37,056 nucleotides of DNA from Tannerellaceae bacterium (GTDB taxonomy: Bacteria > Bacteroidota > Bacteroidia > Bacteroidales > Tannerellaceae): the NCBI GenBank assembly GCA_031269535.1, contig JAISZA010000244.1, positions 1-37,056 of the forward strand, written 5' to 3'. Under the pieces are notes generated by a model. The model saw only the letters and a program-made list of their open reading frames with translations. It made no database searches and had not been told where the DNA came from. Positions within the stretch are counted from its first letter, which is position 1, and every line of letters begins with the position of its first letter. Of this stretch, positions 1 to 36,950 are shown one piece after another. The position numbers and the translations under genes were made by a program.

Positions 1-3000
1 TTTCTCTCCCAGTCCCATATAGCCCAATCCAGTCATATAGTGGTTGGTCACCTGTTGTGCCACACTGGTACGTTGTCCGCCAAACTGCGTGTATGCGCTG
101 TTGTCAGCTGTGTCGCCCAACATTCTTTGAAATAGACTTTTCGCCTCTTCAGGCTTGTTCATCCTGATTAGAGCAAGACCTTTGTAGTAATCGAACTCGC
201 GGTCATCGCCTCGTTCGGTTTCCACCTGCATCGCTTTTTCATATGATTCTTGTGCTTTAGTATGGTTGCCTCGCGATTCGTAAACAAGCCCCGCCAGATA
301 ATAGAGTTGTGCGTATCTTCCGCGGCCATACAAGCCGATAGGGTATGCCAGGGCAGCGTCTATATCCTTCATTGCACTATCGTATTCTTTCTTGTTAATT
401 TCTGCAAGGGCGCGGAGCGTATAACTATTGAGGTAGGCATTCTGGATATCACGCGAACCTTCGGTTTCGGATATACTATTTGTTTTCAGCATTCTCAATG
501 CTTCTTCGTATTTGCCATACTCCACTGCACGGGTAATCAGGCGCAATAAGGTTTCGCCGCGTTTGATTACAGTAGCATAGTTAGCCATAAGAAATTCGTA
601 TTTATCCTGTGGGGATACCTTATTCAACTCGTTAAGGCCGTCTATTTCGAACAACAGGCGGGCATCCCCGCTGTAAACTTCAGCTGCTTTCTTCATACTT
701 GTAAGGGCCTTCGCGTAATCCTTGTCAATTTCGTTGTATGCGAGTCCTAAATTCCGGTGAATAATATAGAACGCAGGATCAAGCTTAGCCGATTTTTCCC
801 AAAGCTCTATTGCTTTACGAGGTTGATGTTCGAAATAAAGATTACCAAGATAATAAGGAGCTTTAGCGCCACCGGCATCCATAGCCATTGCATGATTCAG
901 TATAACAACTTCTTCTGAGCGGAACGGGAAACAGTAGTCTGAAGGCATTGTATCGGCTTTCTTGTAATATGCAAGCGCTTTATTTGCATCGCCCTGTATT
1001 TCGTTCAGATAACCGAGATAGTAATAGAGCAGAGGAAACATATTACCTTTAGCTTCCATACGGCTAAGAAGGTCTATCGCTTCGTTGTATGCGCCTGCCG
1101 ACATATATTCTGTTGAAAACTCGAGATAAGCCTGAATATCCTCATGCATCCAGCCTGACAGTTTTTTAAGGCAGGAATCTGTTTGGGTTTTATTCCCTTT
1201 AGCCATATTCATCGAAATCAGTTCGTTCATCGCCATATAATTGATTTTGGTCTTTTCCAGAACGGTTTCGAACCAGGCCTGCGCTTCAGCCTCGGCGCCT
1301 AGTTTGCGAAGAATTAAGCCTTTTAGGTTCAATGCCTTGATATTGTCTGCATTAGTAGAAAGCGAACGGTTCACATGATCAAGGGCGATTGTGTAATTGC
1401 CGCGCCGGCAATCAATCTCAGCCAGCTGGTAATAGGCGGCTGTATGCCATGCGTATCCCCATGTAGATTGATAAAGCCAGTCGTAAGCTTCGTCTATTTT
1501 ATCTAATTCCTGAAGAACGATACCCAGATAATATAGCGCTTCGCAATTCTTAGGACGTGTATAGTTCATCTTCAAGCGCGTTGCCGCTATACGAAGATAC
1601 TTCTCTGCCTGTTCCCAATTGTGATCTTTAATAGCAAGGATGCCCAGTTGGGTATTAACGTCGGAGTTATCCGGATCGCGGCTGAGAGCTTCCCGGTAGT
1701 AAGGCATCGGGTCCATTGTGCTGTGGAACTGATTTATACGCAGCCCTGTGAGATACAGCTCTTCTACCGACTTCATATCGGCCGGCTCGGGGAATGTTCC
1801 TAAGGCTTTGGGTTTTTCCTGCTTAGGATATACATGTTCCTCAGGAATATAAGCCAGAATAAGTTGGTCGTTTGCGTCGTAGAGCGCCATGTCGAGGTCT
1901 GTTTCAACGATGCCTGCGGGCAGTACGACATTTATCTTGCGTGGTTCGGCGGGGCTGATACCGATAGTTTCGGTCTTTATTTCTTTTCCCTTGCCTTTCA
2001 ATACGAATTTAGCGGCCTTGTGAGGAGAAGTTGTATTTAATCTTACTTCTACAGCGGAGCCTTTTATCTCATAATTCAGGGCACCGTTACGGTTGGCATA
2101 CTTCAAACCGCCCAGTTCACGTATGGGGAACCATATCATTTTCCCGAATTTGGTTTCATAGGGTTCCAACCAGCTGTAATCGGGCTGGTTGTCGGTATAG
2201 AAACCAGCCATAAGTTCGATATAACGACCGTCGTTATCCGTAAGACCCTGATTGGTTTTAAGGCCGTTGGCGTTGTTGCCGTCGGCCCAGTATTTCATAC
2301 CCGGAGAAACATAATGGTTACCAACCCATGCTGTGCCGGCCTGAAGGTTGTGGTCGTAACCTCCGAAATAGTCTTCGCGCGGGTCCCATGAGAAGAATGA
2401 TGAAGGAACATGCGTGTTCATCCACCAACTGACATCCATTCCTGTGAAATCGTAGTTGTTGTAACGGCTGTCGGCGATGGGCCATGCCGTCATATCACGT
2501 TTTCCGTGGAATGTCACATATTGTACGGATGGCGGGAATATTACCTGGTAAGCCGAGTCGCAATGAACAGCCGGATTCGCCCAGAAAAGGAACGAATTTT
2601 CTAAAGCAGTCCTGTTACGCGGATTGATGGTCATCTCAACAACCGACGAATTCGGGTAAATCGTATAGCCTATCAATACATTGACACGTTGAAGCCGCTC
2701 AGTATTGTTAATCCAGACCGTCTTGCTGCCGTCAGCGTGTTCTTCAATCTCATAATCCATATTTTCAACCGTGGTGGGACCATGATGGTGCGGATAACCC
2801 CATGCCAGGCTACCGGAACGCCAATTACCGACCATACCGATTAGGGAAGGTTTGACAACATGGTTTTCATAGAACCAATTGTAACCGTTCGTCTTATCGT
2901 AAGCGGCATAAATACGGCCACCCTGTTCCGGCGCTATCTTGAGTTGAATGTATTCGTTTTCGAGAGAGAGCATTGGATAGCTGACATGCTCTGTTTTCGT

Positions 3001-3216
3001 AGTCAGTCCGTCGTCGAACGGGTAGGGATAAATCCGGCGTTGCACTCCCTGGTGGTTACGGCCTTCGTAAAAACGAGGCATCACATTGGGTGGCGTCTGT
3101 ATGTAGGTTTTTATTACCTGACTGCCTTCGTGTAATTTTACTTGCGCCTGAGCGTCTGCCGGGATGAATGTCCCGCTGAATACAGACGCGATGAGTATCA
3201 TTATAATATGCTTCAT
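1..3216 (-). CDS. DUF5107 and TPR-repeat protein, secreted (3' end outside window)
   Basis: The frame is open from the ATG at 3216 to the window edge, giving 1072 residues without a stop, so the C-terminus is missing. The N-terminus is a signal peptide with a probable cut after AQA (about residue 24). Residues about 40-330 match the DUF5107 family, a mutarotase-like beta-sandwich often found beside glycoside hydrolases in Bacteroidetes; aromatic and His-rich stretches include NGYNWFYEN and YPHHHGPTT (about residue 144). From about residue 500 on, the protein is helical tetratricopeptide repeats (for example EALYYLGIVLQELDKIDEAY, KALNLKGLILRKLGAEAEA). It is the last visible gene of the PUL, 45 bp after the GH50-like gene. 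A role in binding or modifying the sugar, with TPRs for protein contacts, is inference; no enzymatic activity is assigned. Confidence 0.88.
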   Translation of the reverse strand, partial: MKHIIMILIASVFSGTFIPADAQAQVKLHEGSQVIKTYIQTPPNVMPRFYEGRNHQGVQRRIYPYPFDDGLTTKTEHVSYPMLSLENEYIQLKIAPEQGGRIYAAYDKTNGYNWFYENHVVKPSLIGMVGNWRSGSLAWGYPHHHGPTTVENMDYEIEEHADGSKTVWINNTERLQRVNVLIGYTIYPNSSVVEMTINPRNRTALENSFLFWANPAVHCDSAYQVIFPPSVQYVTFHGKRDMTAWPIADSRYNNYDFTGMDVSWWMNTHVPSSFFSWDPREDYFGGYDHNLQAGTAWVGNHYVSPGMKYWADGNNANGLKTNQGLTDNDGRYIELMAGFYTDNQPDYSWLEPYETKFGKMIWFPIRELGGLKYANRNGALNYEIKGSAVEVRLNTTSPHKAAKFVLKGKGKEIKTETIGISPAEPRKINVVLPAGIVETDLDMALYDANDQLILAYIPEEHVYPKQEKPKALGTFPEPADMKSVEELYLTGLRINQFHSTMDPMPYYREALSRDPDNSDVNTQLGILAIKDHNWEQAEKYLRIAATRLKMNYTRPKNCEALYYLGIVLQELDKIDEAYDWLYQSTWGYAWHTAAYYQLAEIDCRRGNYTIALDHVNRSLSTNADNIKALNLKGLILRKLGAEAEAQAWFETVLEKTKINYMAMNELISMNMAKGNKTQTDSCLKKLSGWMHEDIQAYLEFSTEYMSAGAYNEAIDLLSRMEAKGNMFPLLYYYLGYLNEIQGDANKALAYYKKADTMPSDYCFPFRSEEVVILNHAMAMDAGGAKAPYYLGNLYFEHQPRKAIELWEKSAKLDPAFYIIHRNLGLAYNEIDKDYAKALTSMKKAAEVYSGDARLLFEIDGLNELNKVSPQDKYEFLMANYATVIKRGETLLRLITRAVEYGKYEEALRMLKTNSISETEGSRDIQNAYLNSYTLRALAEINKKEYDSAMKDIDAALAYPIGLYGRGRYAQLYYLAGLVYESRGNHTKAQESYEKAMQVETERGDDREFDYYKGLALIRMNKPEEAKSLFQRMLGDTADNSAYTQFGGQRTSVAQQVTNHYMTGLGYMGLGEK

Positions 3217-3240
3217 AAATAGATAATCATGTTGTTAGTT

Positions 3241-3256: not shown

Positions 3257-3261
3257 TATTT

Positions 3262-5202
3262 TTATTCATTCCAGTAATCGGGGATACTGCCATGTCCTCG
3301 GGCTTTTTCCGGCGCCTGGCTGAAAGGCTGAATCGTACCGGAATGGACGTCGTATAAGCGTTTAGCCGTTTCCATCATGGCTTCTACCTGATGTTTATAA
3401 GGACGGTCGGTCACGTCTATCAGGCCACAGTTATAGTTTTCGCCGTCCGAAGCACGTCCCATCAGATCCTGGTCGCACCATTGGAAATAGGCTGTGCCAA
3501 TCAATCCGGGATGAGCATATCCTCGTTCGGTATAATAACGATAGGCTACGCCTCGTTGCTGCTGGTTTCCTACCTGCCATAGAGATTGTGCCATACCTCT
3601 GTCAATTGTTCCGAAATGGTATTCTCCGATAATCATGGGGGTATCGGTAAGGCGCAGGGCGCGATCCATCATTTCCTTATCCGGCTCCAGGGCATAGCAG
3701 TTGAAGCTAAGAACATCGAAAGCATTGCGACAAATCTCCATAAGCGATTCGTCTAATTCGTTCAGATTACCGAAGCGGATGCCCAGGTTCAGATGATTAG
3801 GATCATAGCGTTTCATCGTCGCATTTACGGTTTGCAGGAAGGTATTAAAAGTACGGTAGATAAATTCTTTTTTGCCTTCCGGCGTACTACCGCCGTTCTG
3901 CAAGTATTCCTCCAATGCTGTTTTGATAGGACGAGATTCGCCTTCAAGGATAAGATCGCAAAGGCGAGCTTCCTGTCCCAGCCACGATGGTTCATTTCCT
4001 ACGAAATAGCCGATAACCCAGGGATTATCTTTGTTCGCAGGCAGGTATGTTTTCATACCCGAATCTATTCTGGCTGCAAAACCGGGAGCATATACATCGG
4101 CAAGTCCCATCAGGTTGCCATCCATGGCTAATCCGCGTAATTGGAGGGTATAGGCTTTCTTTTTCAGGTTATACACCTCTGCGTTCGACCAGTTGGCAAT
4201 GGTGTTCAACCCCCACCAGTCCATACGTTTGACGACCATCTCGTTCGCTTTTGCCCGGTAATCCTCCCCATAGCGGCGGTAGAGATTCCAGGCTCCGTAG
4301 GATGCGGATGGGCGATTGCGGACACTTTGTCTGAACGCTTCGGGAGGTAGTTCCCTGAACAGGTTTGCCCGTTTGTCCAGGTTGTTGGCATGACCGCCTC
4401 CTCCGGGATTCACACAGTCGACGCCATGGGAAAGGAACAAATAACCGTCAGGATCGACAAACCACCAGCGTCCATCTATCTTTTCCGTCCTGAAGAATCC
4501 GGAGCCTTTTACTTGTTTTTGCAGGTAGCCGCCATAGTTAGAATAATTGTAATCCGGCTGAATGCCTTCCATTTCCTTGTCTTCGGCGCTCCATTCGTCT
4601 TGCAATTGTTCCAGCGAAGCGATTTTCTCCTCGTATTGTACCAGATTATGTTGCCCAAACTCATCAACAGCATATATTTCTTCCAGATACTCGTCGCCCG
4701 GATCATCCACCGTAAGCGTAATGGAGCGAATTTCCAATTCTGGATTACCGATAGGTACGCGCATGCGGATACCAATGGAATCGATGCCATGGAGCTCGCC
4801 GCGTTTGCCACCCAGGTTGATCCATCCGGTGTACCGTGGCTGATTGAAGGTTGCTGCCAGATCGATTCTGGCATCCGGCAACCGGCGATAGAACTTCAGA
4901 GGGATAGCCAGTTTGTTCCAGCCATTAGGCAGATAACTCATTACACGTAATTCGTTATATCCGTAGTCGGTGGTAAATCCTACGTGAAAACGTTGAGCTG
5001 TGGTGATCCGGAACTCCAGTACTACATAATTATACTCATCCCAGTTACGGGGCAGGTCGGGGTTGATGTCCCGGATGGCAAACTTCCGTCCGGAAACTTC
5101 GTGGCTGCTGTCGAAACTGATTTTAAATTCTTTCGGAGCAGACGTACACTGGGTTGTTAAAAGCAGAGCTAAGACAGCCATGCCGGTAATTAGCTTTTTC
5201 AT
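3262..5202 (-). CDS. Clan GH-A glycoside hydrolase lipoprotein, GH50/agarase-like
   Basis: A 646-residue protein with a hydrophobic leader and a lipobox-like site ending in Cys19 (LTTQC), so it is probably a lipoprotein. Residues about 25-165 look like a beta-sandwich carbohydrate-binding module of the kind seen before agarase catalytic domains. The catalytic barrel begins near 232 (GFFRTEKIDGRWWFVDPDG) and carries the clan GH-A pair: acid/base Glu404 in GYFVGNEPSW and nucleophile Glu527 in PMIIGEYHFG. The C-terminal FQWCDQDLMGR stretch fits the last strands of the barrel. The length and layout resemble GH50 exo-agarases, but many related proteins act on other beta-galactosides or are untested, so agar as substrate is not claimed. 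It starts 6 bp after the upstream beta-helix gene, so it belongs to the same transcript. Confidence 0.8.
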   Translation of the reverse strand: MKKLITGMAVLALLLTTQCTSAPKEFKISFDSSHEVSGRKFAIRDINPDLPRNWDEYNYVVLEFRITTAQRFHVGFTTDYGYNELRVMSYLPNGWNKLAIPLKFYRRLPDARIDLAATFNQPRYTGWINLGGKRGELHGIDSIGIRMRVPIGNPELEIRSITLTVDDPGDEYLEEIYAVDEFGQHNLVQYEEKIASLEQLQDEWSAEDKEMEGIQPDYNYSNYGGYLQKQVKGSGFFRTEKIDGRWWFVDPDGYLFLSHGVDCVNPGGGGHANNLDKRANLFRELPPEAFRQSVRNRPSASYGAWNLYRRYGEDYRAKANEMVVKRMDWWGLNTIANWSNAEVYNLKKKAYTLQLRGLAMDGNLMGLADVYAPGFAARIDSGMKTYLPANKDNPWVIGYFVGNEPSWLGQEARLCDLILEGESRPIKTALEEYLQNGGSTPEGKKEFIYRTFNTFLQTVNATMKRYDPNHLNLGIRFGNLNELDESLMEICRNAFDVLSFNCYALEPDKEMMDRALRLTDTPMIIGEYHFGTIDRGMAQSLWQVGNQQQRGVAYRYYTERGYAHPGLIGTAYFQWCDQDLMGRASDGENYNCGLIDVTDRPYKHQVEAMMETAKRLYDVHSGTIQPFSQAPEKARGHGSIPDYWNE

Positions 5203-5208
5203 ATTCCT

Positions 5209-8200
5209 TTATTTATAGTTGTTAATTTGAATACCGTACAAGGATTTGGTCGTCGTGGCAAACAGCGTCTTAAAATCTTTACCGCCGATAGCCAGTGATA
5301 TAGGACGCTCTTCAAGCTGGATACGCTTGATTTCTTTTCCTGATTTGTCATATACAAATATTTCGCCATCAGCTATATATACATTACCCTCTTGATCTGT
5401 TACGCTGCTGTACTGACCACGTGGATATGCTTCCTTCAGGTTTGAAAGCGTACCGTCGGCATTTACATCAAGCCTTACGGTTGTCTTAATGTTTTCATGC
5501 ACTACATAAAGAGGCTCCGTTTGCCCAGGAGTTACTGAAACCAGTGCGGCCGAACGGCTTAAGTCATATGTTTCGGGAATAATCGTCACCTGGTCGGGAG
5601 CCAGGAAACTATATTCGGGCATGGTTGTTACCACTTTGTTGAAATCGCCTCTCCAGCGACTTGCAGGATGTATGATCCTGCGGATGTTCCCTGCATCCTT
5701 CGTAGCAATCTTTTGCAGAGGCATGAATGTTTCATCCGGATTTTCAGGGTTGATGGAATAAGCCCAGGCTGCCCATCCGCTGTTTCCCCATCCACTGTAC
5801 ATCGGGTTGTCGTCGGGCAAGCGCGGAACGCTTTCCTGCCGGCCATTCACCAGGTAACCGGGCTGAGGGTCATAGCGGAAAACAACCAGCAGATTGTCCT
5901 TCGTGTCGGTGGCGAGTGTGAACGGCTTCCAAGGATAGTCGGCCAGCAGGCTAAGCGCTTCTTTGGCAACGTCCCATTTGTATATTTTTTTGAGGCGGTT
6001 CTCTCCGAAATACGCATTCCCCTTGCTGTCGACCGTTATACCTGCGGCAAAGTCAAAGCCTTCGGCCAGTTTGTTGATTGTGCCCGACGTATGGTCGATG
6101 ATGCGCTTGCTTGTTTCTTTTCCCGAAACATTCAGACGGGCAATGTCCCAGTCATATACTGGCAATTTCTTGTTTACATCATAGACAGGAATCTCAATGA
6201 CAGGTAGTATCTGCGTATAGTTATGCAAGTTGCGGAATTGAATATCCTCACAGTTCCATAGCCTGATACCATATTCCTGCGGTGTAAAGGCCCGGATGAC
6301 ACGGTACATCCACAGGTTGGAAAACATCAGATGCCTACAATCAGACACTTCCATCATTCGGCAATCCTTGCCTTCGCGACCTTCTTCCTCAAACTGGAAG
6401 GCGTACACTTTCCAGTTGGCGACATTCTCGAAGCGCGCCTCGTTCCTTACATGGTGTTCCAGCGACATGGCGTAGATACGTCCGGGGGTCGAAGTATTGC
6501 TTACGTAAAGTCCGGAGGTCGCATAAGTATTAGCCGTCCAGATGTCCTTGATCGTCCCGCCCCCGTTGCGGGTGATCCAGAGGCTCCAGTACTGGTTATC
6601 CCAGGCCAGGTCTAACCCCTGGGCAGCGACGGGCGACGTGGGCGAACTGATTGCGGGCGCCATTCTGCGGGTTTGTTGCTGGGGCTCCTGAGACAGCGGG
6701 TTGGGCTTACGCATGGTGCCGTGGCCTCCCACAAACTTAACGTCGTTCAGGTAGGAAGCCTCCCCGGCCATCCATTTCAGGCCTACAGCGCGGTAGTTGT
6801 ATCCTCCTGTGTTGATACCGATGCCATTAAGGATGTCGTCGCCTCCTTCCGAGGATTCCACAACCGGTTGGGGCGAACCGAAGCCGCTAAAGGTCGCCTC
6901 ACTTTCTTTGAGTATAAATTGCGTAGCGAAGGGGTGAAGGCCTATCAGCTTCGTACCGGGCCGGAGCTTGAGGGTTTCCGTGATACGGTACCAGCCTTGG
7001 GGGACATAGATATGTTTGTGCTGAGCAATGGCCTTGCGAAAGGCTTCGGTATCGTCTGTTTCCCCGTCTCCTTTGGCTCCGAAGTCGCGTACGCTGACCC
7101 ACGTATCCATAGCCGGCAGGGCGGGAATATCGTTCGAGACAGGAACCTCAAAGCGGGCGAGCGGGACGATGTCGCGAAGGGTTTCATAGTGTGAAGGTGT
7201 CGTCAGGTCGGACATTATCAATCCATAAGTATAGTCTCGGACGTGGTACTGGCGCTCTTTCACCTCTTCCTTCCTTCCGCTTTGCAGGTAGTGTACGAAG
7301 GTAGGGACGTTGCGGCAGCAGAGATTCAGCACATTGAGCTGCGAGAACATATTATCCTCTACACTCACTACAATGCCTGCCCGGCTGATGTTCTCGAAAT
7401 AGGAGTCCTCCAGATGCAAGCGATCTACGCTCCCTTGCTGCATTTCGAAGGCTACGGGGGTGTTTTTCACGTGCATACGGACGATGGCGAAGCCTACTTC
7501 TCTGGTTAGGACGGCGGCTTTACGCTGCCCCTCGAAGTAGGTGTCCACCATCATCATGGGCCAGCCCGGCGAGGTGCGTCCCGATGTGATACCGTACTCG
7601 CCGCCGTAGAACATAAGGTTTTCTACCTCGTTCCCCACGTCATAAATCCCCGCCTTTCCATCACCGATGCGGATGACGCTATGGCTGATAAAGCTATGCT
7701 GGGCGAAGTGGGAACGGATGGCCACGGCTGCAGGATTACCTTGTTCGATGCGGAAATTGATGTTTGAGAGGGCACTGTAGAACGTACCGGCGCCAGCGTC
7801 CTGAGGCTGCCGGTCGGGTCGGGCGATGGCCCCGGTGAACCAAATCATGTAGTTCTGCCCTTCCTGATAGCCGGGGGTGTTGCGTCCGAGGATGATCTCG
7901 GGGCGGTTCTTCCCGTAGCCAATCAAGCGGATGGCAGATGGCACATGAATGGTTTTGCTGATAAGGTATTTCCCCTCCGGGATAAAGAGGATACCGAAGG
8001 TTTTCTCGGTCTTCACCTGGTTGACGGCTGCCTGGAGGACGTCGGAGACGTCTGTTTTCCCGTCAGCTTTGATGTTGTAATTCTCCGGCGTGAAAAAAAA
8101 GGCCTCCGGGTCACTGGGTTTTTGGGTATAGACCGAAGCCTCATGCGCAGCATACAGCAAGCAGCTGTGGAGAGCCAAAGCCAGAAGTATAAATCGTTTA

Positions 8201-8226
8201 CTGTTTATTTTCATATTCATATTCAT
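5209..8226 (-). CDS. Tandem beta-helix (pectate-lyase-3/GH55-like) plus beta-propeller protein, copy B
   Basis: A 1005-residue secreted protein. The signal peptide (KRFILLALAL...) ends near LLYAA; three in-frame ATGs (8226, 8220, 8214) make the exact start uncertain. Two pectate-lyase-3 type beta-helix starts are visible: IKADGKTDVSDVLQAAVNQV at about 52 and VRDFGAKGDGETDDTEAF at about 380. The second helix contains SLEHHVRNEARF (about 589), followed by FQFEEEGREG (about 611). Two tandem helices with an EHxV stretch and then a Glu-rich strand recall the layout of GH55 beta-1,3-glucanases; this is from memory, and the family is not proven. Residues about 715-1003 are an NHL/SMP-30-like beta-propeller (GITVDSKGNAYF, VTDQEGNVYIADGEIF). 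It is a clear paralogue of the gene at 10680-13706, and the two flank the GH9 gene. Confidence 0.8.
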   Translation of the reverse strand: MNMNMKINSKRFILLALALHSCLLYAAHEASVYTQKPSDPEAFFFTPENYNIKADGKTDVSDVLQAAVNQVKTEKTFGILFIPEGKYLISKTIHVPSAIRLIGYGKNRPEIILGRNTPGYQEGQNYMIWFTGAIARPDRQPQDAGAGTFYSALSNINFRIEQGNPAAVAIRSHFAQHSFISHSVIRIGDGKAGIYDVGNEVENLMFYGGEYGITSGRTSPGWPMMMVDTYFEGQRKAAVLTREVGFAIVRMHVKNTPVAFEMQQGSVDRLHLEDSYFENISRAGIVVSVEDNMFSQLNVLNLCCRNVPTFVHYLQSGRKEEVKERQYHVRDYTYGLIMSDLTTPSHYETLRDIVPLARFEVPVSNDIPALPAMDTWVSVRDFGAKGDGETDDTEAFRKAIAQHKHIYVPQGWYRITETLKLRPGTKLIGLHPFATQFILKESEATFSGFGSPQPVVESSEGGDDILNGIGINTGGYNYRAVGLKWMAGEASYLNDVKFVGGHGTMRKPNPLSQEPQQQTRRMAPAISSPTSPVAAQGLDLAWDNQYWSLWITRNGGGTIKDIWTANTYATSGLYVSNTSTPGRIYAMSLEHHVRNEARFENVANWKVYAFQFEEEGREGKDCRMMEVSDCRHLMFSNLWMYRVIRAFTPQEYGIRLWNCEDIQFRNLHNYTQILPVIEIPVYDVNKKLPVYDWDIARLNVSGKETSKRIIDHTSGTINKLAEGFDFAAGITVDSKGNAYFGENRLKKIYKWDVAKEALSLLADYPWKPFTLATDTKDNLLVVFRYDPQPGYLVNGRQESVPRLPDDNPMYSGWGNSGWAAWAYSINPENPDETFMPLQKIATKDAGNIRRIIHPASRWRGDFNKVVTTMPEYSFLAPDQVTIIPETYDLSRSAALVSVTPGQTEPLYVVHENIKTTVRLDVNADGTLSNLKEAYPRGQYSSVTDQEGNVYIADGEIFVYDKSGKEIKRIQLEERPISLAIGGKDFKTLFATTTKSLYGIQINNYK

Positions 8227-13600: not shown

Positions 13601-13706
13601 CCTCGGGATCGTCAGGCCGCTCCATATAGACGGATTCAAGATGCACGGCATACAGGGAAGTACACATGATGCAACCAATCGTAGCAAATAAAAATTTCTT
13701 CAACAT
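10680..13706 (-). CDS. Tandem beta-helix (pectate-lyase-3/GH55-like) plus beta-propeller protein, copy A
   Basis: A 1008-residue secreted protein with a signal peptide ending at TSLYA. The domain order is the same as in its paralogue at 5209-8226. The first beta-helix starts at IKADGKTDVSEALQVAINQV; the second starts at IRSLGAKGDDTTDDTEVF. The conserved SLEHHVRNEARF (about 593) and LEEESREG (about 616) follow, then an NHL/SMP-30-like propeller from about 720 (EGIVRDSKGNIYFSDQRF, AVDKEGNLYVADGQIYIF). Long runs are identical between the copies, such as ILFIPEGKYLISKTI and AAQG.DLAWDNQYWSLW, including the putative active-site region, so both copies are probably under functional constraint. A low-complexity Pro/Gln-rich insert (ESAQPPQGRGANPQPPR) breaks the second helix; the other copy has a shorter one. 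It is the first enzyme-like gene after the hairpin at 13721-13758. Confidence 0.8.
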   Translation of the reverse strand: MLKKFLFATIGCIMCTSLYAVHLESVYMERPDDPEAFYFTPENYPIKADGKTDVSEALQVAINQVKRERNFGILFIPEGKYLISKTIYIPGAIRLIGYGKDRPEFVLAKNAPGYDQEVVGDKGKANYMFWFTGGIVEDGQTPRDAGAGTFYSAMSNINLRISDGNPHAVALRTHYAQHSFISHVAVYIGKGKAGLFDVGNEMENVAFYGGDYGIYTTKSSPGWQVAMIDSYFEGQRRAALRCQESGLAMVNLQARNVPVVFDIDPNYADRLFVENSRFENVKEAVVVVSNENNSNNQITFRDIYCSNVPVLAQYRRSNTQTKVSHKTYRIKEYAHGLRMDDITSRPEYRTILDTEPVAKLPPALARDIPALPNMKSWVNIRSLGAKGDDTTDDTEVFQQAIDRYEVIYVPQGWYRISETLKMKLNTHLIGLHPFGTQLRLAESTPAFSGFGSPKALLESSEGGTNILNGIGINTGAYNYRAVGVKWMAGEGSYLNDTKFVGGHGGMSKPRPDESAQPPQGRGANPQPPRISSPLNPIAAQGMDLAWDNQYWSLWVTKGGGGTIKDVWTASTYAASGLYMNNTSTPGRIYAMSLEHHVRNEARFKNVANWKILCFQLEEESREGTECQPIEMEGCKDITFANLYMFRVIRINKPYPYSIRIWENCENIEFIHVHNYSQIKYTTDNPLYDINKDIEVRPWELQRLLMTGKEPRRVALTDEVGKVQQLAAGFEFAEGIVRDSKGNIYFSDQRFRRIYRWSVETNTLSLVSDFPWEPLSLGVDTEDNLLVVFRYRPQPGYVVNGSPDRPISYPDTRGTSFAGYGNNAFETKAYSIDPNNPEETIKALPKVPMGSVTNVHKALYPSNRWRDFHDFNTVVMFKPEYCFVAPDGKTIIPDQYDLARASSLLEAYPGKPFYASDEYDKRMVRMEVAPDGTLSRLEYFVEWGEFGSAVDKEGNLYVADGQIYIFDRDGKPKGLIDVPERPSSIQFGGKDGNTLFITARSRLFSVRIK

Positions 13707-13774: not shown

Positions 13775-14539
13775 TTATTGTATATTAAAGTTGATGACCG
13801 TATAGGGGGCATAGTTGCGCCGGATGGTGCCGACGCTTGTGCCGCCCTCGGCAATGGCTGCCATGGCGCCTACCCTGAAATAGTAATTACGCGCGTATCG
13901 GAAATAGTTTTTATTCACCTCGTCCGTCAGGTCGATGGTCAAGGTGTATGTTTCGGATGCTGCGATTACTTTGGCAGGAGAGAAGTCTTGTTTGAAGCCT
14001 CCACCTCCCGGAGTGTAGGTAGTGACCTGGTCGCCCACATAGATATCGGTATGAGCGTAGAGGCAGACGTTGCTCAGGCGGACTTCGTCTCTGCCGGCTT
14101 CCAGATTGAAGGTTGCTTTAATGGCGTTGCCTTCTTTCACGATATTTACATTCCTGACACGTATGTAGGGTGTAACTTCAAAATCCATGGTATTATTGCC
14201 TTTCTTTATAACCACTTCCTCAACAAAGAACGGATAGAAGTTGCAGGCATTGAAATCAATACTGTAGTTGCCAGCAAAGAACATATCGTCGCGAAATTCG
14301 CCGTTCTGTTTCACTACGCGCGTAAGAAGCCCGGTGGGGTATCCCAGCTCCTGAAACTGTAAGCGCGAACCGTTCTGGATATCGGTTTCCACCAATTCAC
14401 CTGTTTTGATGTCTCGGATACTTCCGTTAAAGGAAGCATTGGGGCCTTCGTAATTGTCAATCTTAAACAAATCGCATGCTGTGAGGGCAAAGGCGGCAAG
14501 GAGAATTATCAATAAATTTTTCAGTTGTAACTTAATCAT
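13775..14539 (-). CDS. DUF3823 PUL lipoprotein
   Basis: A 254-residue protein with signal sequence and lipobox Cys22 (ALTAC), followed by a beta-rich body of the DUF3823 family. This family is regularly encoded directly after susD in Bacteroidetes PULs. The N-terminal half (FNGSIRDIKTGELVETD) has the look of a carboxypeptidase-regulatory-like or fibronectin-like sandwich, and a second sandwich follows from about residue 130. By analogy with other PUL accessory lipoproteins it may bind glycan at the cell surface; that is inference. It lies 19 bp after susD in the same transcript and is followed by a terminator-like hairpin. Confidence 0.85.
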   Translation of the reverse strand: MIKLQLKNLLIILLAAFALTACDLFKIDNYEGPNASFNGSIRDIKTGELVETDIQNGSRLQFQELGYPTGLLTRVVKQNGEFRDDMFFAGNYSIDFNACNFYPFFVEEVVIKKGNNTMDFEVTPYIRVRNVNIVKEGNAIKATFNLEAGRDEVRLSNVCLYAHTDIYVGDQVTTYTPGGGGFKQDFSPAKVIAASETYTLTIDLTDEVNKNYFRYARNYYFRVGAMAAIAEGGTSVGTIRRNYAPYTVINFNIQ

Positions 14540-14558: not shown

Positions 14559-16601
14559 TTAACGACCGGGGTTGTTTGTTAAACCGCTTACACCCACGCC
14601 GGGAATATTGTAGTAATAATTCATGGTCTGGAAAGTACGGCCACCGGCAAGTACGTCGTGAAATTGTTCCATCCTGAGAAAGACATACTTTGGTTTGTCT
14701 TCCCGAAGGTCGATCAATTGCACTAAGGCATGCCTGCGGTAATTGTTGACCAAGGTATGATATTCGCGTCGGCGGAACAAATCGCCCAGGCGGAAGCCTT
14801 CGAAGGCCAATTCGATGCGGCGTTCCTTCAGGACGTTTTCGAGCGTGAGCGGTATCTGATCGGTATGCCCGGCGCGTTTGCGCAAAGCATTGATGTAAGC
14901 TGCGGCGGCCGTTTTGTCGCCGGCGCCGCTCTCTGCGACGGCTTCGGCATAGTTCAAATAAATCTCGGCTAAGCGGAAGTCTATCCAGGGCGTGTAGGAG
15001 CTGCGCTCGAGGCCGGCGATTGTTTTGTCTTCAGCCAGGTATTTCCGTACGGTGAAACCCGTAGAGGAGAAATTGGCATCGTCGCTGCTTGTCATGGTGG
15101 CAAAGCCAGAATAGCCTCCCGAGCTTTCGGCTCCGTAGGTGTAGTAGGTATTGCCGTCTTTCCCTTCTTCGGAGTAGGATTGATAGACCTTGATTTCGCC
15201 GTTTTTGGTGATCAATCCTCCCTGCATCACGATGGTTATGCCTTTGTACTTGCCGCCCGGTACGACGATACTGCCGTGCAGGCGGGCGTCTTTGTTCCGG
15301 AAAGGTTCGTAGGGGTCGTCATACTTGACGAACGGGATGGCTGCTACCTGTGCATCGAGCGGGGAGTTGGTGTTGATGAATTCATTTTCTTTCCCATCGG
15401 TGCGTGTGACTATGCTGGCGCTCTTGCCTGATCCGTTGTCGGTATAATCTTCATACAAGTCAACTATATCCAGACTGGGAGAGAAGCGTCCCCATTTATG
15501 GAAACCGGTACTGGCCTGCGAGGGGCTGTAACGAATGTCGTAATCGTGCCCCTGGTCATTGAGTTTGGTACCATCCATATACGTCTTGGCAAAAATGATT
15601 TCATCGCCCAGCGTATTCATGAACATTTCCTGGTAGTTCTTGGCAGCTTCGTCGCGGCTGGCAGGATTCGGCTTGTAGAGCGAATGCCCGGAATTATCAA
15701 TAATCGCCTTCGATGCCGAAATACACTCACCGTAGAAGAAGTCGGCCTGCGAGGCATCCATTCCTACTAATTTCAGATTGGCTGCTTCGCCGGAAAAAGT
15801 CACTCTTCCTCCGTACTTAGCAAGAGAGGCTGCATAGAGGGCTGCTCTTGATTTCAAGGCATAAGCCGCCCATTTGGTGGCGCGGTAGAGGGGATTGCCG
15901 TCATCGGAGGCGAAATTTTCCGGTGTCGGCAAATACTGTATCGCCTGGTCACATTCGCTCAGTACAAACTTCCAGGTGTCGAGTTCCGTACTGCGGGGAA
16001 TGAATAAAGGCGTGGCATCTCCGTTGTAATCATCGTCCTGAAGCCAGTCGATAATGGGGACACCACCGTAACGTTTGGCCAGCGCGAAGTAGAGATAAGC
16101 GCGAACGAAATGAGCTTCGCCCGATAAACGATTGTATTTTCCTTCGTCGATAATACCTTCGTTTTTTGCCTGCTCGATGCTTCTCAGAAAGATGGAGACA
16201 TCTCTGTTTCTGCCGTAAGCACTGATCTGATAGATTGTATTTCCGCTGATACCGGTCGTATTGCCGTCGAAGAAGGCGTAATTCCCCGGACCAATGCCGT
16301 TGCCGCTGCTCAAGATGCTTTCATCGGTATACATGGAAGTCATGACCATTTCACCGGCTCCGCCTTGCCATCCGCGACGATTGAAGCCGTAATCCGGACG
16401 GTAGTTAAAGTCTTCCATAGGGATCGCGTTGTACAAATTGGCTAAAAGTGTTTTTAAACCATTTTCGTTTGACAACAATCTATCCGAACTCATTTTTGTT
16501 AATGATTCAACTTCTAAAAAATCATCACAACTGTTGTTTAATGCCAAAAACACGATCGACATTAAAAAAATCAATTTATATTTCTTGATATTCCTTATCA
16601 T
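14559..16601 (-). CDS. SusD/RagB family glycan-binding lipoprotein
   Basis: A 680-residue outer-membrane lipoprotein: leader, lipobox Cys25 (LNNSCDDFLE), then the SusD helical TPR-like scaffold (HFVRAYLYFALAKRYGGVPI; EIYLNYAEAVAESG; RRIELAFEGFRLGDLFRR). These are family hallmarks at the expected places. It caps the SusC transporter and captures oligosaccharide at the surface. It follows susC by 12 bp. At 680 residues it is longer than many SusD proteins (500-600), with extra sequence in the middle. Confidence 0.95.
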   Translation of the reverse strand: MIRNIKKYKLIFLMSIVFLALNNSCDDFLEVESLTKMSSDRLLSNENGLKTLLANLYNAIPMEDFNYRPDYGFNRRGWQGGAGEMVMTSMYTDESILSSGNGIGPGNYAFFDGNTTGISGNTIYQISAYGRNRDVSIFLRSIEQAKNEGIIDEGKYNRLSGEAHFVRAYLYFALAKRYGGVPIIDWLQDDDYNGDATPLFIPRSTELDTWKFVLSECDQAIQYLPTPENFASDDGNPLYRATKWAAYALKSRAALYAASLAKYGGRVTFSGEAANLKLVGMDASQADFFYGECISASKAIIDNSGHSLYKPNPASRDEAAKNYQEMFMNTLGDEIIFAKTYMDGTKLNDQGHDYDIRYSPSQASTGFHKWGRFSPSLDIVDLYEDYTDNGSGKSASIVTRTDGKENEFINTNSPLDAQVAAIPFVKYDDPYEPFRNKDARLHGSIVVPGGKYKGITIVMQGGLITKNGEIKVYQSYSEEGKDGNTYYTYGAESSGGYSGFATMTSSDDANFSSTGFTVRKYLAEDKTIAGLERSSYTPWIDFRLAEIYLNYAEAVAESGAGDKTAAAAYINALRKRAGHTDQIPLTLENVLKERRIELAFEGFRLGDLFRRREYHTLVNNYRRHALVQLIDLREDKPKYVFLRMEQFHDVLAGGRTFQTMNYYYNIPGVGVSGLTNNPGR

Positions 16602-16613
16602 ATTCAGATTTTA

Positions 16614-19600
16614 TTAAAAACTTAAATTAATACCGAAATTGACAGCTTTCATGATAGGATAAGACAGACCGGCATTCCATGCGTTCTCCTGCCGTTCGGG
16701 GTCTAAATCTTTCAATTCTTTCTTCGTAAACAGCAAGAGGTTTGTACCGTTTACGAAAGCACGCAGCCTGGTAACACCTATTTTGTTGAGCACAGCCTGA
16801 GGAACAGTGTAACCGAGTTCCACATTCTTTAACCGCAGATAGTTCGCCATTGGCCTCCAGACGTCGATGGCATACGAATCGGTCGTATTATCGTAATTAT
16901 AGGGTCTTCCCGCCGGATACTTTCCGGCTATCCATTGAGTTGCAGGATCCAACGGGTTGTCTGTCGGACTGGCCGTATGCCAGCGATCTAAGAATTTTGC
17001 ATGCAAAGTAGGATAGCGTCCATATCCCCAGATATCATTCATGTGATAATTTACCGAATAGAGCGCTGCTCCTTGCAGAAGCAGGCTTAAATCCCATGAC
17101 TTGTAGCTACCATCGAAAGTAAATCCGTATTGCAGCGGAGGATTAACCCGGTTATATGAGGCGCCATCAACGGCCTCCGAGGCCCCAGAGATGTAACCCT
17201 GGTCACCATAAGCCCAGTTTACAAACAATTGGTCATCACCGCTTATCCTGCCATCGCCGTTAGCGTCTATGATACGGTATGCACCCGGCAACATCTTCGA
17301 GTTACCACGATTGCCGCCATTTAATAAGGGGACTGTTTCAAATTCGGTCAATGAAGTGAACTGTCCGTCGTAGGTATAAATCCGGTTTCGTCCGGTGAAG
17401 CGGTCTTCGTTTCCGTTGATCCATTCATCCCACTGGCTGGTAAAAGGAGCGCGTTCTACATGTAAGCGTTTGGTTCGCGCGTAGGTGGCGTTCGCTCCGA
17501 TTGTATATTTGAAATCTTTCCCAACCGTACCTCTGTATTTTAGCTGCAATTCAAGGCCGATGTTCATATCCGAATTTATGTTTTCCTGCGGGAAAGAAGC
17601 CCCGAACGTATTCGGTACGGATGATTGTCGGTTGGCAAGAATACCGGTATTCTTACGTTGGAAATACTCAAGAGTAGCACTGAATTTGTTTTTCAGGATG
17701 TCGAGGTCGGCGCCTACATTGAAAAACTTGGCCGTTACCCAGGTCATATTGTCGTTGACAACGCCCGGAGGATACATACCGGTAGTTAACGAACCGTCGT
17801 CAAATATATAGCCACGCCGATTATCCGAGATATAGGCCGCTAAATATTCGTAAGCATTGCCCTGGTCACGCCCGCTTTCGCCATAAGAAGTGCGGAGTTT
17901 AAAATTATCAACAAAGGGTGCGAGGTTTTTGAAGAATTCTTCTTCCGACACACGCCAGGCTATACTTCCCGAGGGGAACAGAACCCATCGCTTGCTTGGG
18001 GCGTAGCGATAGCTGCCGTCACGACGTAACATACCTTCAAAAATGTATTTCCCTTTGAAATCATAATTTAAGCGACCTATGAAAGCCGCATACCTCCTAA
18101 ATTCACGATTACCCGAATTTGAAGCGGTGCTTACGGAAGCCTGGTCGAGAATATCGAAGGTGAATAAATCATTATACGAACGTTGACCTCTTAAATTATC
18201 AAAACGTTCCTGGGAAGCTTCAATGGCTCCCATAAGGCTGAGCGAATGGTCGCCGAATTTTCCTGTATAATTGGCCTGGAGCTTTGTATAGGTTTTATTA
18301 TACAGTCTGATTTCATTCCAATAGCGATCTACGCCTCTGGTGAGCAGGTAAGTGTCGGTGAAATAGTCGTAGATACCATGCGAGGCTTCCTTATCCGATT
18401 CATTCCTGTTTTGTAAATCGAAAGAGCCCAATAAATTTACGCTAAAGCCGGGAAGGAAGGGTGCGGTGTACGTAAAATCTATCTGCGCATTTCCGGTGAT
18501 ATTTTCATTCCGGCGATATCCTTCCAAATCAGGGCTTATCAATGCTGCCGGATTCTTATCTTCCGGACCGACGCGGGATAAGTGTTCAGGGTTATCCAAT
18601 GTATAAGGGCCTACACCACGGTCATTTACAATGAGGCTCTTATAGGTCCAAATGAAATCTTCGTGTGCTCGTTGCCTTTTGTCCATACGGCCCGAGAACA
18701 TGACATTCATTTTAATATCGTCGCTCAGGTTGGCTGTCAGATTGCTTCTGAGCGTATACCTCCGGTAGTATTGAACATCATTCTTGAATAAGCCTTTGTC
18801 TTCATTATAACCCAGGCTGGTGTAATAGCTCACTTTTTCACCGCCACCTCTTACCGAGAACGTATGGTTTTGCACGGGCACCGCTTTATACATATACATG
18901 TCTATCCAGTCCCAGTCCTGATAGCCCGGTTCGCCGTTTCTATACTTTTCGAGCAGTTCGTCGCTATAGCGGGGAGCAGCTCCGATGTTTCTCTGGTATT
19001 CGTTTTCCATCACGCGATAGTCGTATGCGCTCACCATATCGGGCATACCGGTAGGCATTTTCGCACCGGTCAGACCGGAATAGGAGAATCGCGCTTTTCC
19101 TGCCTCTCCTTTCTTTGTCGTAACAATAATTACCCCGTTTGCTGCATTCATACCGTAAATGGCTGCCGATGCATCCTTGAGGATAGAAATGCTTTCGATA
19201 TCATCGGAGGTTAATTGCGCTAATTCGGAAACGCCGTCGCGATTGCGGACAATTCCGTCGATAACGACAACTGGTGTACCAAAACCACGGATACTGATCA
19301 TGTTGCCGAAATCACCGGGTTCGCCCGTTTGCTGGCGTATAAGCAAGCCGGCCATCTTTCCCTGCATATTGCTTATCAGATTGTCTGTTTTTGTGGTTGT
19401 AAGTTCAGCCGCATTGATGGATGACACGGCGCCGGCCAGGGTTTCCCTTTTTTGCGTACCGTAGCCTACTACAACTACCTCTTCAAGCGCCTGCGAGTCT
19501 TCTTTCATGGTGATGGAGATAGTATTCGCAGTGCCGATGCGTATTTGCTGGGTCACGTATCCGATATAGCTGACAATCAAAATCGAGTTTGCCGTTACGC

Positions 19601-20135
19601 CCGGCAGTGTGAATTGTCCGCTCACATCACTGACGGTACCAATGGCCGCCCCACTTATCTGTATGTTCACACCGATAAGCGGTTCGCCGGCATCATCGAC
19701 GACCGTACCCGTAATGGTTCGCGTTTGTTGTTGGCTGCTTACTGCCGCCGGAGTCAGTTTGCCGGCAGTGGGTTTTGTACGCGAAATAAAGATCTGCCGG
19801 TCGCTGATTACATACGTATTATCGGTAGATTTGAACAGTTTGTCGAGTACCTGATCCACCGTTTCGTTTTTCACACGGATACTGACCTTCCGGTCGGTAT
19901 CGATAGCTCCATCATAATAGAAAAAGACGAATTCACTGTTCTTTTCTATTTCAGTTAAAACTTCTTTTATGTTCTTGTTACTCAATTCTAATGTTAACAG
20001 GGTGGATTGAGAATAGGTTACTTCGGCATAACTTATTCCACTGCCTGTAATCAACGACAGAACAACAATTACCATGCACCTGACGGCATTTTTATAATCA
20101 AATCTCACTAAAGGAATCTTCTGTTGATTTATCAT
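16614..20135 (-). CDS. SusC/RagA TonB-dependent transporter with STN signalling domain
   Basis: A 1173-residue outer-membrane protein. After a signal segment (about 18-40) comes an STN/secretin-N domain (about 48-118, LELSNKNIKEVLTEIEKNSE), which in this class contacts a FecR-type anti-sigma factor. Next are a carboxypeptidase-regulatory-like domain (about 138-220, GTVVDDAGEPLIGVNIQISG), the SusC signature EEVVVVGYGTQKRETLAGAV, a plug (GNMISIRGFGTPVVVIDG, DASAAIYGMNAANGVIIVTT), and a long beta-barrel ending in FGINLSF. It imports oligosaccharides using TonB energy. The STN domain together with the upstream fecR and ECF sigma genes indicates trans-envelope induction. A -7-like box and a hairpin lie in the 119-bp gap before it. 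Confidence 0.95.
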   Translation of the reverse strand: MINQQKIPLVRFDYKNAVRCMVIVVLSLITGSGISYAEVTYSQSTLLTLELSNKNIKEVLTEIEKNSEFVFFYYDGAIDTDRKVSIRVKNETVDQVLDKLFKSTDNTYVISDRQIFISRTKPTAGKLTPAAVSSQQQTRTITGTVVDDAGEPLIGVNIQISGAAIGTVSDVSGQFTLPGVTANSILIVSYIGYVTQQIRIGTANTISITMKEDSQALEEVVVVGYGTQKRETLAGAVSSINAAELTTTKTDNLISNMQGKMAGLLIRQQTGEPGDFGNMISIRGFGTPVVVIDGIVRNRDGVSELAQLTSDDIESISILKDASAAIYGMNAANGVIIVTTKKGEAGKARFSYSGLTGAKMPTGMPDMVSAYDYRVMENEYQRNIGAAPRYSDELLEKYRNGEPGYQDWDWIDMYMYKAVPVQNHTFSVRGGGEKVSYYTSLGYNEDKGLFKNDVQYYRRYTLRSNLTANLSDDIKMNVMFSGRMDKRQRAHEDFIWTYKSLIVNDRGVGPYTLDNPEHLSRVGPEDKNPAALISPDLEGYRRNENITGNAQIDFTYTAPFLPGFSVNLLGSFDLQNRNESDKEASHGIYDYFTDTYLLTRGVDRYWNEIRLYNKTYTKLQANYTGKFGDHSLSLMGAIEASQERFDNLRGQRSYNDLFTFDILDQASVSTASNSGNREFRRYAAFIGRLNYDFKGKYIFEGMLRRDGSYRYAPSKRWVLFPSGSIAWRVSEEEFFKNLAPFVDNFKLRTSYGESGRDQGNAYEYLAAYISDNRRGYIFDDGSLTTGMYPPGVVNDNMTWVTAKFFNVGADLDILKNKFSATLEYFQRKNTGILANRQSSVPNTFGASFPQENINSDMNIGLELQLKYRGTVGKDFKYTIGANATYARTKRLHVERAPFTSQWDEWINGNEDRFTGRNRIYTYDGQFTSLTEFETVPLLNGGNRGNSKMLPGAYRIIDANGDGRISGDDQLFVNWAYGDQGYISGASEAVDGASYNRVNPPLQYGFTFDGSYKSWDLSLLLQGAALYSVNYHMNDIWGYGRYPTLHAKFLDRWHTASPTDNPLDPATQWIAGKYPAGRPYNYDNTTDSYAIDVWRPMANYLRLKNVELGYTVPQAVLNKIGVTRLRAFVNGTNLLLFTKKELKDLDPERQENAWNAGLSYPIMKAVNFGINLSF

Positions 20136-20173
20136 TTGTATTGATTTTTTTTGTAATGCTTTTTTTGTTTAAT

Positions 20174-20181: not shown

Positions 20182-20188
20182 AAATTAG

Positions 20189-20209
20189 CTGCCTCTTTAG
20201 AAAAGGCAG
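20189..20209 (-). terminator. Weak hairpin between fecR and susC
   Basis: CTGCCT at 20189-20194 pairs with AGGCAG at 20204-20209 (6 bp, 9-base loop). On the minus strand a T-rich stretch follows (CTAATTTTAGTTTT). The stem is short, so this would be a weak terminator separating the regulatory genes from susC. Confidence 0.45.
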
Positions 20210-20254
20210 GCTGTGGTTTGTCTTCATTTTTTTTATTGTTCCATAGGCATTTTT

Positions 20255-21463
20255 TTATTTGTTTGTAATGATGTAAACTCCCTGATTATATTGGTACGTT
20301 ATGGACGCTATCTGAGAAATTCCGTCCAGTATGGTTTCTAATTTGTCTTTCAGGTCTAATTTCCCTGAGAATTTCATTTGTGATACTTTGGGAGAACAAA
20401 CAATGGAACAGCCATAGTAGTGGGATAAATGCTCCATAATCACTCCAAGCTGTTCACTATTATAATGGTAAAGACCGTTCTTCCATGAAATATGGTCTTC
20501 TACTTTCACGGTTTGTATCTTTGAAATACCATTACTGAATGAATACATTTCATTAGGCGATAATATAGTTTCATTCTCCTGATGAATAGTACGTACTTTT
20601 ACGCTACCTCTGACTAACACAATACGTTGGGCGTTGTCTTTTTCATAAGCCGTAATATCAAATGCAGTACCTAATACTTCCACATCCATTTCTGTTGTTT
20701 TTACAATGAATGGGCTCTGCTCGTCAGGTGATACCTCTATATAAATCTCGCCATCTACGTATATTTCCCTTTTCTTCTTATCGAAATCAACCGGATAGGC
20801 TACCCGCGTACCTGCATTTACCCATATACGGCTCCCTTCGGAAAGTGTCAGTATCGAACGTTTCCCCCAAGGGACAACTAACTGATGAAACGTCTGCTTT
20901 TTGTCGGTCGATAATTCTTTTTTCAAAACAATGTCATTATCATTTATCGTAATATTTTCTTTATTGTATGCAATCTTCGCTTCTCTTCCTCCTAAAGAAA
21001 CAGGTTTATTGCCGTCGAGATATAGCTGAATATCTGTTCCTGCTTCAAGCCGGGCATCGGTAGTAAATAATGGGGAAAAACCACTGGTGTTATCCGGAAT
21101 AATAGTCCTTACCGATAGTATAAGCGCAAACAAAGCTATCATACCCGACACAATCGAAATGATATGGTAACGTTTTTTCTTCCTCTTCATATTCGCTTTG
21201 TTGGTCACCTCGATATCTACCCATAGATTGAATATCTCTGCATCTGAAATAAACTCAGGACGAACCTGTACAGAGCGGATAAAACGGCAGGCAAATGTAT
21301 AGTCTTCCCTATCTATAAGTCCTTTTTCAAGCATTTCATTCCAATACGCCTCCGATTCCGGCTCTGAAGACAATTGTGAGGCAATAAAATTGTCATCTTG
21401 AAATAAATCATCAAAAGAATACTGCTTGCCATCGTCTTTGCGTGAAATTTCGTTTTGCATCAT
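20255..21463 (-). CDS. FecR-family anti-sigma factor
   Basis: A 402-residue inner-membrane protein. The cytoplasmic N-terminal part (1-98) is expected to hold the sigma factor. One transmembrane helix lies at about 100-120 (HIISIVSGMIALFALILSV). The periplasmic FecR domain (about 190-300) contains LTLSEGSRIWVNAGTRVAYP and EVLGTAFDITAY, and a C-terminal DUF4974-type STN-like domain ends the protein (SHYYGCSIV, LDGISQIASITY). It starts 1 bp after the sigma factor stop codon, so the two are translated from one message. It should receive the signal from the SusC STN domain. Confidence 0.95.
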   Translation of the reverse strand: MMQNEISRKDDGKQYSFDDLFQDDNFIASQLSSEPESEAYWNEMLEKGLIDREDYTFACRFIRSVQVRPEFISDAEIFNLWVDIEVTNKANMKRKKKRYHIISIVSGMIALFALILSVRTIIPDNTSGFSPLFTTDARLEAGTDIQLYLDGNKPVSLGGREAKIAYNKENITINDNDIVLKKELSTDKKQTFHQLVVPWGKRSILTLSEGSRIWVNAGTRVAYPVDFDKKKREIYVDGEIYIEVSPDEQSPFIVKTTEMDVEVLGTAFDITAYEKDNAQRIVLVRGSVKVRTIHQENETILSPNEMYSFSNGISKIQTVKVEDHISWKNGLYHYNSEQLGVIMEHLSHYYGCSIVCSPKVSQMKFSGKLDLKDKLETILDGISQIASITYQYNQGVYIITNK

Positions 21464-21464
21464 A

Positions 21465-22133
21465 TCATTTTTGTTTAATTATACTCATGTGCTTTTTCAC
21501 ATGTTGTATAGTATTACCAGTCTCATCAAATGTTTTCTTGATTTTTTTGATCGAACGTTGGATCAGGTTTTGAAGCGATTGGTAATTAATTTCCATTAGC
21601 TTACAAATCTCGTCCAGCTCCATTCCTTGTATATAACGATAATAAATAACTTCTTTCTGCCTGGGAGTCAGCGAATCTAATATTCGCCTCAGCTTTTTTT
21701 GTTCCTCTATTTCCTGTTCCTCAGCAATGAGATGTTCTTCAGTCGTATAGTCAATGCAGAAGACCGGTTCCTGCATATCAATATAATAAACGATCTTATC
21801 TTTCTGAAAAATAGTATAGAGTTCGTTTTTCAAAGAAATAAACAGATAAGCCTGTATTTGATTGACATGCCTCAGATTCGGGCGCTTACTGTATAGCTCT
21901 ACAAAAACGTCATGGATACAATCCTTCACCAATTCTCTATCGGAAGTAAACCTCATTCCGTAAGAGAAAAGCACCTTCACGTATTTCTGATAGAAATACG
22001 CGTAGGCCTCATCGTCTCCTGAAACAAACTTTTCCCAGAACACTGTGTCTTCTTGACTATGTAATCCTCGAATCATTGTCTTCCTTGTAATTTTCTGTTT
22101 GTTACAAAAGGAATATTTCGTCTGCCCGGACAT
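21465..22133 (-). CDS. RNA polymerase ECF-type sigma-70 factor
   Basis: 222 residues from the ATG at 22133; an internal ATG at 22076 (MIRGLHSQED) would give 203 residues and fits the usual start of the family. Region 2 is visible (EAYAYFYQKYVKVLFSYGMR, ELVKDCIHDVFVELY), as is the helix-turn-helix of region 4 (LTPRQKEVIYYRYIQGMEL, EICKLMEINYQSLQNLIQRS). It pairs with the adjacent FecR and most likely activates this PUL. A TAnnTTTG match at 22165-22172 gives a short leader to the 22133 start, which is why I keep the longer form. Confidence 0.95.
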   Translation of the reverse strand: MSGQTKYSFCNKQKITRKTMIRGLHSQEDTVFWEKFVSGDDEAYAYFYQKYVKVLFSYGMRFTSDRELVKDCIHDVFVELYSKRPNLRHVNQIQAYLFISLKNELYTIFQKDKIVYYIDMQEPVFCIDYTTEEHLIAEEQEIEEQKKLRRILDSLTPRQKEVIYYRYIQGMELDEICKLMEINYQSLQNLIQRSIKKIKKTFDETGNTIQHVKKHMSIIKQK

Positions 22134-36945: not shown

Positions 36946-36950
36946 GGTAT

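Follow-up and report, generated by a model that had tools for sequence, protein, structure and literature searches.

Which glycan is degraded by an enzyme set that combines two beta-helix/propeller proteins, a glycoside hydrolase of family 9 (GH9), a GH50-like enzyme and a DUF5107-tetratricopeptide repeat (TPR) protein? These are encoded in a run of minus-strand genes in contig JAISZA010000244.1 of a Tannerellaceae bacterium, presumably of an insect-gut type. The window analysed here is the entire contig of this metagenome-assembled genome (MAG), 37,056 nt (G000:C44 in our numbering). The locus is a real and conserved polysaccharide utilization locus (PUL). We infer from its GH55 machinery and from the partner genes of its relatives that the substrate is a beta-1,3(/1,6)-glucan: with a probability of about two in three, it is a beta-1,3-linked glucan, probably beta-1,6-branched or mixed, of the fungal, oomycete or callose/laminarin type.

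Gene Organization

Ten genes occupy the minus strand from position 22133 down to 1, from an extracytoplasmic function (ECF) sigma factor gene to the DUF5107-TPR gene; all open reading frames were confirmed, and the gaps between them in that order are 1, 119, 12, 19, 68, 105, 26, 6 and 45 bp. This bears out the proposal of a sequence-only reading that ten same-strand genes separated by no more than 119 bp form one locus. Pfam and NCBIfam agree with the gene identities given in that reading, including GH9, the paired beta-helix/propeller proteins and DUF5107-TPR, and its GH50-like call is upheld by a full-length match (see below). No sulfatase, alpha-glycosidase or pectate lyase of a characterised family was found among the ten genes, as it had also noted.

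A SusC-SusD pair accompanied by co-directional genes of carbohydrate-active enzymes, evident from Pfam, NCBIfam and the gene layout, identifies the operon as a PUL. The ECF sigma factor is of the Bacteroidota Sig70 type (21465-22133; Pfam Sigma70_r2/r4, NCBIfam TIGR02985), and 1 bp separates its gene from that of a FecR-type anti-sigma factor (20255-21463; Pfam FecR and FecR_C). They are followed by genes for a SusC/RagA TonB-dependent transporter (TBDT) with STN and plug domains (16614-20135; TIGR04056, E 3.5e-243; STN and plug in Pfam), a SusD-like glycan-binding lipoprotein (14559-16601; PF07980, PF14322) and a DUF3823 lipoprotein (13775-14539; PF12866, PF18003; lipobox LTAC), a probable surface glycan-binding protein (SGBP) whose gene also follows that of SusD in relatives. 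As the window is the whole contig, the DUF5107-TPR gene (1-3216) is cut by the contig end, and the locus may extend further.

GH55-Type Proteins with a C-Terminal Propeller

According to Pfam, both beta-helix/propeller proteins, BHP1 (10680-13706) and BHP2 (5209-8226), have a pair of PF12708 beta-helix domains followed by an SGL propeller at the C terminus. GH55 ranked first in the sequence search with BHP2 (E 1e-14), and the BHP family profile matched PcLam55A of Phanerochaete with E 9e-18. The AlphaFold2 model of BHP1 (mean predicted local distance difference test score, pLDDT, 82.9; predicted template modelling score 0.85) superimposes on PcLam55A (3eqn) over residues 24-706, that is, over both helices, with Z 33.2 and a root-mean-square deviation of 2.8 for 615 residues. 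The scores against other GH55 structures were 32.9 (5m5z) and 31.4 (8jhh), and GH55 entries held ranks 1-6; the first non-GH55 fold reached Z 19.0 and covered a single helix only. Residues 716-1008 match six-bladed propellers of the SMP-30/gluconolactonase type (Z ~18). By prediction from model and sequence, BHP1 and BHP2 are GH55-type beta-1,3-glucanases that carry an SMP-30-like propeller as a C-terminal fusion.

The active site is consistent with this assignment. The C-domain profile of the BHP family, searched against PDB after trimming of a generic tailspike motif, matched three GH55 enzymes and nothing else; a shorter, 125-residue profile around the catalytic residues gave no PDB match, the longer profile being the one that did. 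In the HMMER alignment, E594, H595 and E617 of BHP1 fall on E591, H592 and E614 of MnLam55A, i.e., on the EH pair and the general acid, while W551 and W554 fall on W552 and W554, the tryptophans of the active-site aromatic block; the roles of these residues, with E614 as the general acid, are taken from the study of MnLam55A (PMC10637969). All five, together with Q177, which is aligned to the proton-relay Gln, are invariant in 88 of 88 homologues. The residue equivalence between BHP1 and MnLam55A, although of modest local alignment score, appears well supported, and BHP1 is predicted to be an inverting beta-1,3-glucanase with E617 as the acid. BHPs share the tandem beta-helix (residues 24-706 in BHP1) with PcLam55A, the Chaetomium enzyme (5m5z), MnLam55A (8jhh) and SacteLam55A (4pew), and keep the general acid, the EH pair, the proton-relay Gln and both active-site tryptophans, but differ from these enzymes in the low identity (~17%), the C-terminal propeller and two active-site substitutions considered below.

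BHP1 and BHP2 are 55% identical and belong to separate orthologous groups (tree support 100/100). Bacteroides proteins are among the members of the BHP2 group, and loci of the Prolixibacteraceae type also contain BHP2-like copies; the tree therefore indicates that the pair is an old duplication and rules out a recent tandem one.

Homologous Loci and Their Partner Genes

When 84,980 species genomes were scanned, at least 291 stretches encoding BHP relatives were found. Seventy-eight loci were read, nearly all of them from Bacteroidota, and same-strand neighbours were counted in 77, which are not all phylogenetically independent. GH9 and GH50-like genes were the most frequent enzyme partners (13 loci each), followed by GH30 (12) and GH18 (10); DUF5107-TPR (TPR5107; 8), GH5 (6), GH16 (2) and GH3 (2) were rarer. 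A further 60 same-strand neighbours were mainly housekeeping genes, judging from the first 25 of 88 families, and may include rare sulfatases.

The full gene set of the window recurs in Parabacteroides sp. PF5-9 and in the Bacteroidales MAG AS06rmzACSIP_547 (full-set loci L026/L027, L049 of Parabacteroides PF5-9, and L064). As the complete set is found in three lineages and in three gene orders, the combination is not an assembly accident. Related loci add further glucanase genes. Locus L055 has the order FecR-SusC-SusD-DUF3823-BHP-GH50-like-GH30-GH16-TPR5107-BHP; the best PDB matches of its GH16 protein are beta-1,3(4)-glucanases and laminarinases, and its GH30 protein is closest to 5ngk, which we take to be the GH30_3 beta-1,6-glucanase BT3312 of Bacteroides thetaiotaomicron. 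GH3, GH30, BHP and GH5 genes stand together in L083 and L092, and a minimal locus, SusC-SusD-DUF3823-BHP, is found in L030, L041, L045 and L052. Elsewhere in the genome studied, contig C4 carries an ECF-FecR-SusC-SusD-GH30-GH30 PUL; other contigs hold GH30 relatives with 67% identity as well as a weak relative of GH16, and no relative of the GH2/GH5-like partner was found in the same genome in a search run without a positive control. Judging by their bin names, several of the relative MAGs bearing the locus presumably come from termite or cockroach guts.

A run of GH30-type (1139 aa), GH55/propeller and GH50-like genes was also observed in a Candidatus Azobacteroides MAG (L074, 917-9178). In the Mucilaginibacter loci L086, L090, L098 and L108, GH55/propeller genes are followed by DUF5009 and GH18 genes, which is a different gene context.

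GH50-Like and GH9 Enzymes

The GH50-like lipoprotein of clan GH-A (3262-5202; lipobox TTQC) has no Pfam domain, and phmmer aligns it over its full length with GH50 agarases (E 3e-55; 6xj9). Like GH50_1 beta-agarases, it has both catalytic glutamates, E404 (acid/base) and E527 (nucleophile), which are kept in all members, and it retains the C-terminal DGENYN motif of GH50 beta-agarases. In contrast to GH50 agarases, it belongs to a distinct Bacteroidota clade that shares its operons with GH55, GH9, GH30, GH16 and GH5. Among 395 sampled genomes of the class, GH50 relatives split into this clade and agarase-like GH50s at ~30% identity, several of which adjoin enolase-superfamily, sulfatase and GH2 genes; the tree separates the clade from the agar-context GH50s with 97/100 support, on long branches, and the window protein did not group with GH50_1-type beta-agarases in an agar-type context. 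Two members of the clade (L146, L147) do not adjoin BHP genes. GH50 already includes beta-1,3-glucanases, the proposed GH50_2 (PaBglu50A) and GH50_3 (Fsa16295Glu) (PMC11079163); therefore, a glucanase role for the GH50-like enzyme is plausible and needs no new activity for the family.

The GH9 lipoprotein (8253-10574; PF00759, E 3e-23; PF02927; lipobox FASC) has a CelD_N Ig domain and an N-terminal extension of ~230 residues. Its catalytic D371 and D374 (the Asp-Asp base pair) and E755 (acid) are conserved in 95% or more of the 23 members, and the two aspartates of the DAGD motif have a spacing of three. A second GH9 gene, 37% identical, lies in another SusC/SusD locus of the same genome (L039, G000:C11, 8673-19653), together with GH20-like and GHL10 genes.

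DUF5107-TPR Protein

The last protein of the operon combines a DUF5107 domain of the mutarotase-like supersandwich type (PF17128, E 6e-41) with TPRs and is assigned to the periplasm by its signal peptide. The structure of the DUF5107 part was predicted with low confidence (pLDDT 58.6), and its fold matches 5cd6, the closest solved structure, and galactose mutarotases; it looks like a mutarotase-like sandwich, the low-confidence matches supporting no more than that. The TPR-domain protein BDI_1685 of Parabacteroides distasonis (5cd6) resembles this low-confidence model in combining a DUF5107-type mutarotase-like fold with TPRs. Nothing on the function of DUF5107 was found in the open literature consulted. 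In genome G031, a DUF5107-TPR protein is encoded next to an agarase-like GH50 (30% identical) and a GLAA-B (alpha-galactosidase type) protein, hence DUF5107-TPR proteins are not glucan-specific. A DUF5107-TPR protein of 2460 residues in this genome (L149, G031:C116, 524-11999) has ~1,400 C-terminal residues with no domain assignment.

Proposed Function and Alternative Substrates

The protein localisations, read from lipoboxes and signal peptides in the sequence, suggest the following course of glucan utilization. An oligosaccharide signal passed through SusC and FecR would free the ECF sigma factor, which would then transcribe the operon. SusD and the DUF3823 protein would bind the glucan at the cell surface, where the lipoproteins GH9 and GH50-like could cut the chain, and SusC would import the fragments. 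The two GH55/propeller proteins, which carry type I signal peptides and so are probably periplasmic, would trim beta-1,3 bonds by inversion, with the propeller holding the chain, while the DUF5107-TPR protein may assist in the periplasm as a sugar-binding or mutarotase-like component. Glucose release could be completed by genes located off the contig or elsewhere, for example, by the GH30/GH30 PUL on contig C4.

Of known systems, the 1,3GUL of human gut Bacteroides consists of a TBDT, SGBPs, GH3, GH16_3, GH158 and a hybrid two-component system (HTCS) (PMC7157763). The window locus likewise relies on SusC/SusD-based uptake, for what its genes suggest is a beta-1,3-glucan, but has ECF/FecR regulation instead of HTCS, and GH55, GH9 and GH50-like enzymes in place of GH16, GH158 and GH3. 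Also related are the PULs that contain GH55 only, all of which have two GH55 copies according to Lapebie et al. (2019; PMC6499787), whose remark on them mentions neither a mechanism nor a propeller fusion; in the window, GH9, GH50-like and DUF5107-TPR genes are added to such a pair. The earlier view that the locus matches no described PUL hence holds in part: no characterised PUL with this gene set was found, but paired GH55 genes are already known, and the propeller fusion is the new appendage.

Several observations weigh against a beta-1,3-glucan as the substrate. GH9 enzymes usually act on beta-1,4 links, the GH9 paralogue in the same genome adjoins a GH20-like gene, and many Mucilaginibacter homologues of BHPs adjoin GH18 and ThuA genes, not beta-glucanase genes. 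GH16, GH30, GH3 and beta-glucosidase genes are absent from the window locus, although the contig end may hide some of them. In the aligned active site, Tyr617 of MnLam55A, adjacent to the acid and orienting it, is replaced by S620 in BHP1 (S, G or T among homologues), and the subsite -1 Asp557 by N or K in BHPs. The exact specificity of BHPs may therefore differ; the local alignment is weak here, so that its register may be shifted at both positions, which lie between the firm anchors, and other residues may substitute. Finally, Bacteroides fluxus has the minimal SusC-SusD-DUF3823-GH55 locus (L052) but did not grow on yeast beta-glucan or curdlan, and its growth on laminarin is attributed to a GH158 locus (PMC7157763); consequently, the minimal locus is not sufficient for growth on yeast beta-glucan or curdlan.

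The weight of GH9 in these loci could instead point to a mixed beta-1,3/beta-1,4-glucan or a substituted cellulose-like backbone (cereal-type glucan, lichenan or a bacterial exopolysaccharide), with GH9 as the beta-1,4-cleaving enzyme and the GH55-type proteins stripping beta-1,3 stretches or side chains. The window GH9 has CelD_N and the canonical DAGD motif, unlike the exo-acting GH9 glucosaminidases with their wider aspartate spacing (D140/D144; PMC6096475); GH9 shares with GH50-like the first place among the enzyme partners of GH55/propeller proteins, and L070 carries a second, canonical GH9-CBM6. However, loci without GH9 are common, several having GH16 or GH30 instead, and the match of the window GH9 to cellulases is weak (E ~1e-11) and partial, so we regard such a substrate as unlikely. 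The sequence-only reading had proposed a mixed beta-glucan, or a glycoprotein or exopolysaccharide containing beta-glucan/galactan. A beta-glucan PUL is well supported, and the GH55 identity of the BHPs, missed in that reading, narrows the target to the beta-1,3 type; the galactan half of the proposal is not supported. Use of agar or another beta-galactan, led by the GH50-like enzyme, would agree with its agarase similarity, both catalytic glutamates and DGENYN included, and with the DUF5107-TPR and GLAA-B neighbours of the 30%-identical GH50 in G031. Yet agar-context GH50s branch apart from its clade, whose partners are beta-glucan enzymes, and no agar-specific partner (GH86, GH117 or sulfatase) was identified by Pfam in the window operon. 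To our knowledge, GH55 machinery has no galactan role, and we consider a galactan target highly improbable.

The propeller itself raises the possibility that the GH55-type proteins act on an oxidised or lactonised beta-linked glycoside, the propeller being a catalytic lactonase, with a link to 3-keto or aldonate sugar chemistry. It matches gluconolactonase/xylonolactonase structures (Z ~18), and some distant loci contain ThuA, lactonase and sugar-acid genes; but neither the window operon nor its close relatives have such partners, propeller folds also serve for binding alone, and the Glu in the first blade of BHP1 (FAEG) is Ala in BHP2 (FAAG), which leaves a lactonase very unlikely. Pectin or rhamnogalacturonan was rejected as a substrate: the NCBIfam match to the BT4146 rhamnogalacturonidase spans only the generic first 48 positions and falls far below the cut-off.

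On a wider view, the odds are somewhat less than even that GH55/propeller fusions and the GH50-like clade make up a beta-1,3-glucan degradation system that is widespread in Bacteroidota and uncharacterised. The GH50-like enzymes would then represent one more GH50 subfamily, active on glucans and not part of agar metabolism, and the propeller would be a module for processivity or lactone handling. With these assignments, unnamed proteins encoded in at least 291 genome stretches can be tested as GH55-type enzymes that carry a new appendage, and one GH50 clade of terrestrial and gut bacteria is predicted to act outside agar breakdown. The assignments also offer a candidate route by which fungal or callose-type glucans are broken down in the guts of insects. 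Each part is an ordinary target for recombinant expression.

Other Genes of the Contig

An AraC-family regulator gene (22655-23764, plus strand; PF12833) is divergent from the operon and is a candidate member only. Between the two, positions 22230-22430 of the plus strand, read by eye, resemble a broken remnant of sigma-70 region 4. The right half of the window, with genes for regulators, a helicase, a transglycosylase, a NUDIX protein and restriction-modification enzymes, appears unrelated to the operon. At its end (34531-36982), a gene for a SwaI-like restriction endonuclease (PF22081, E 1e-100) is convergent with that for an Eco57I/TaqI-type N6 methylase; the two make up a type II restriction-modification pair, which lies in a low-GC tail (0.30-0.36) and was probably acquired.

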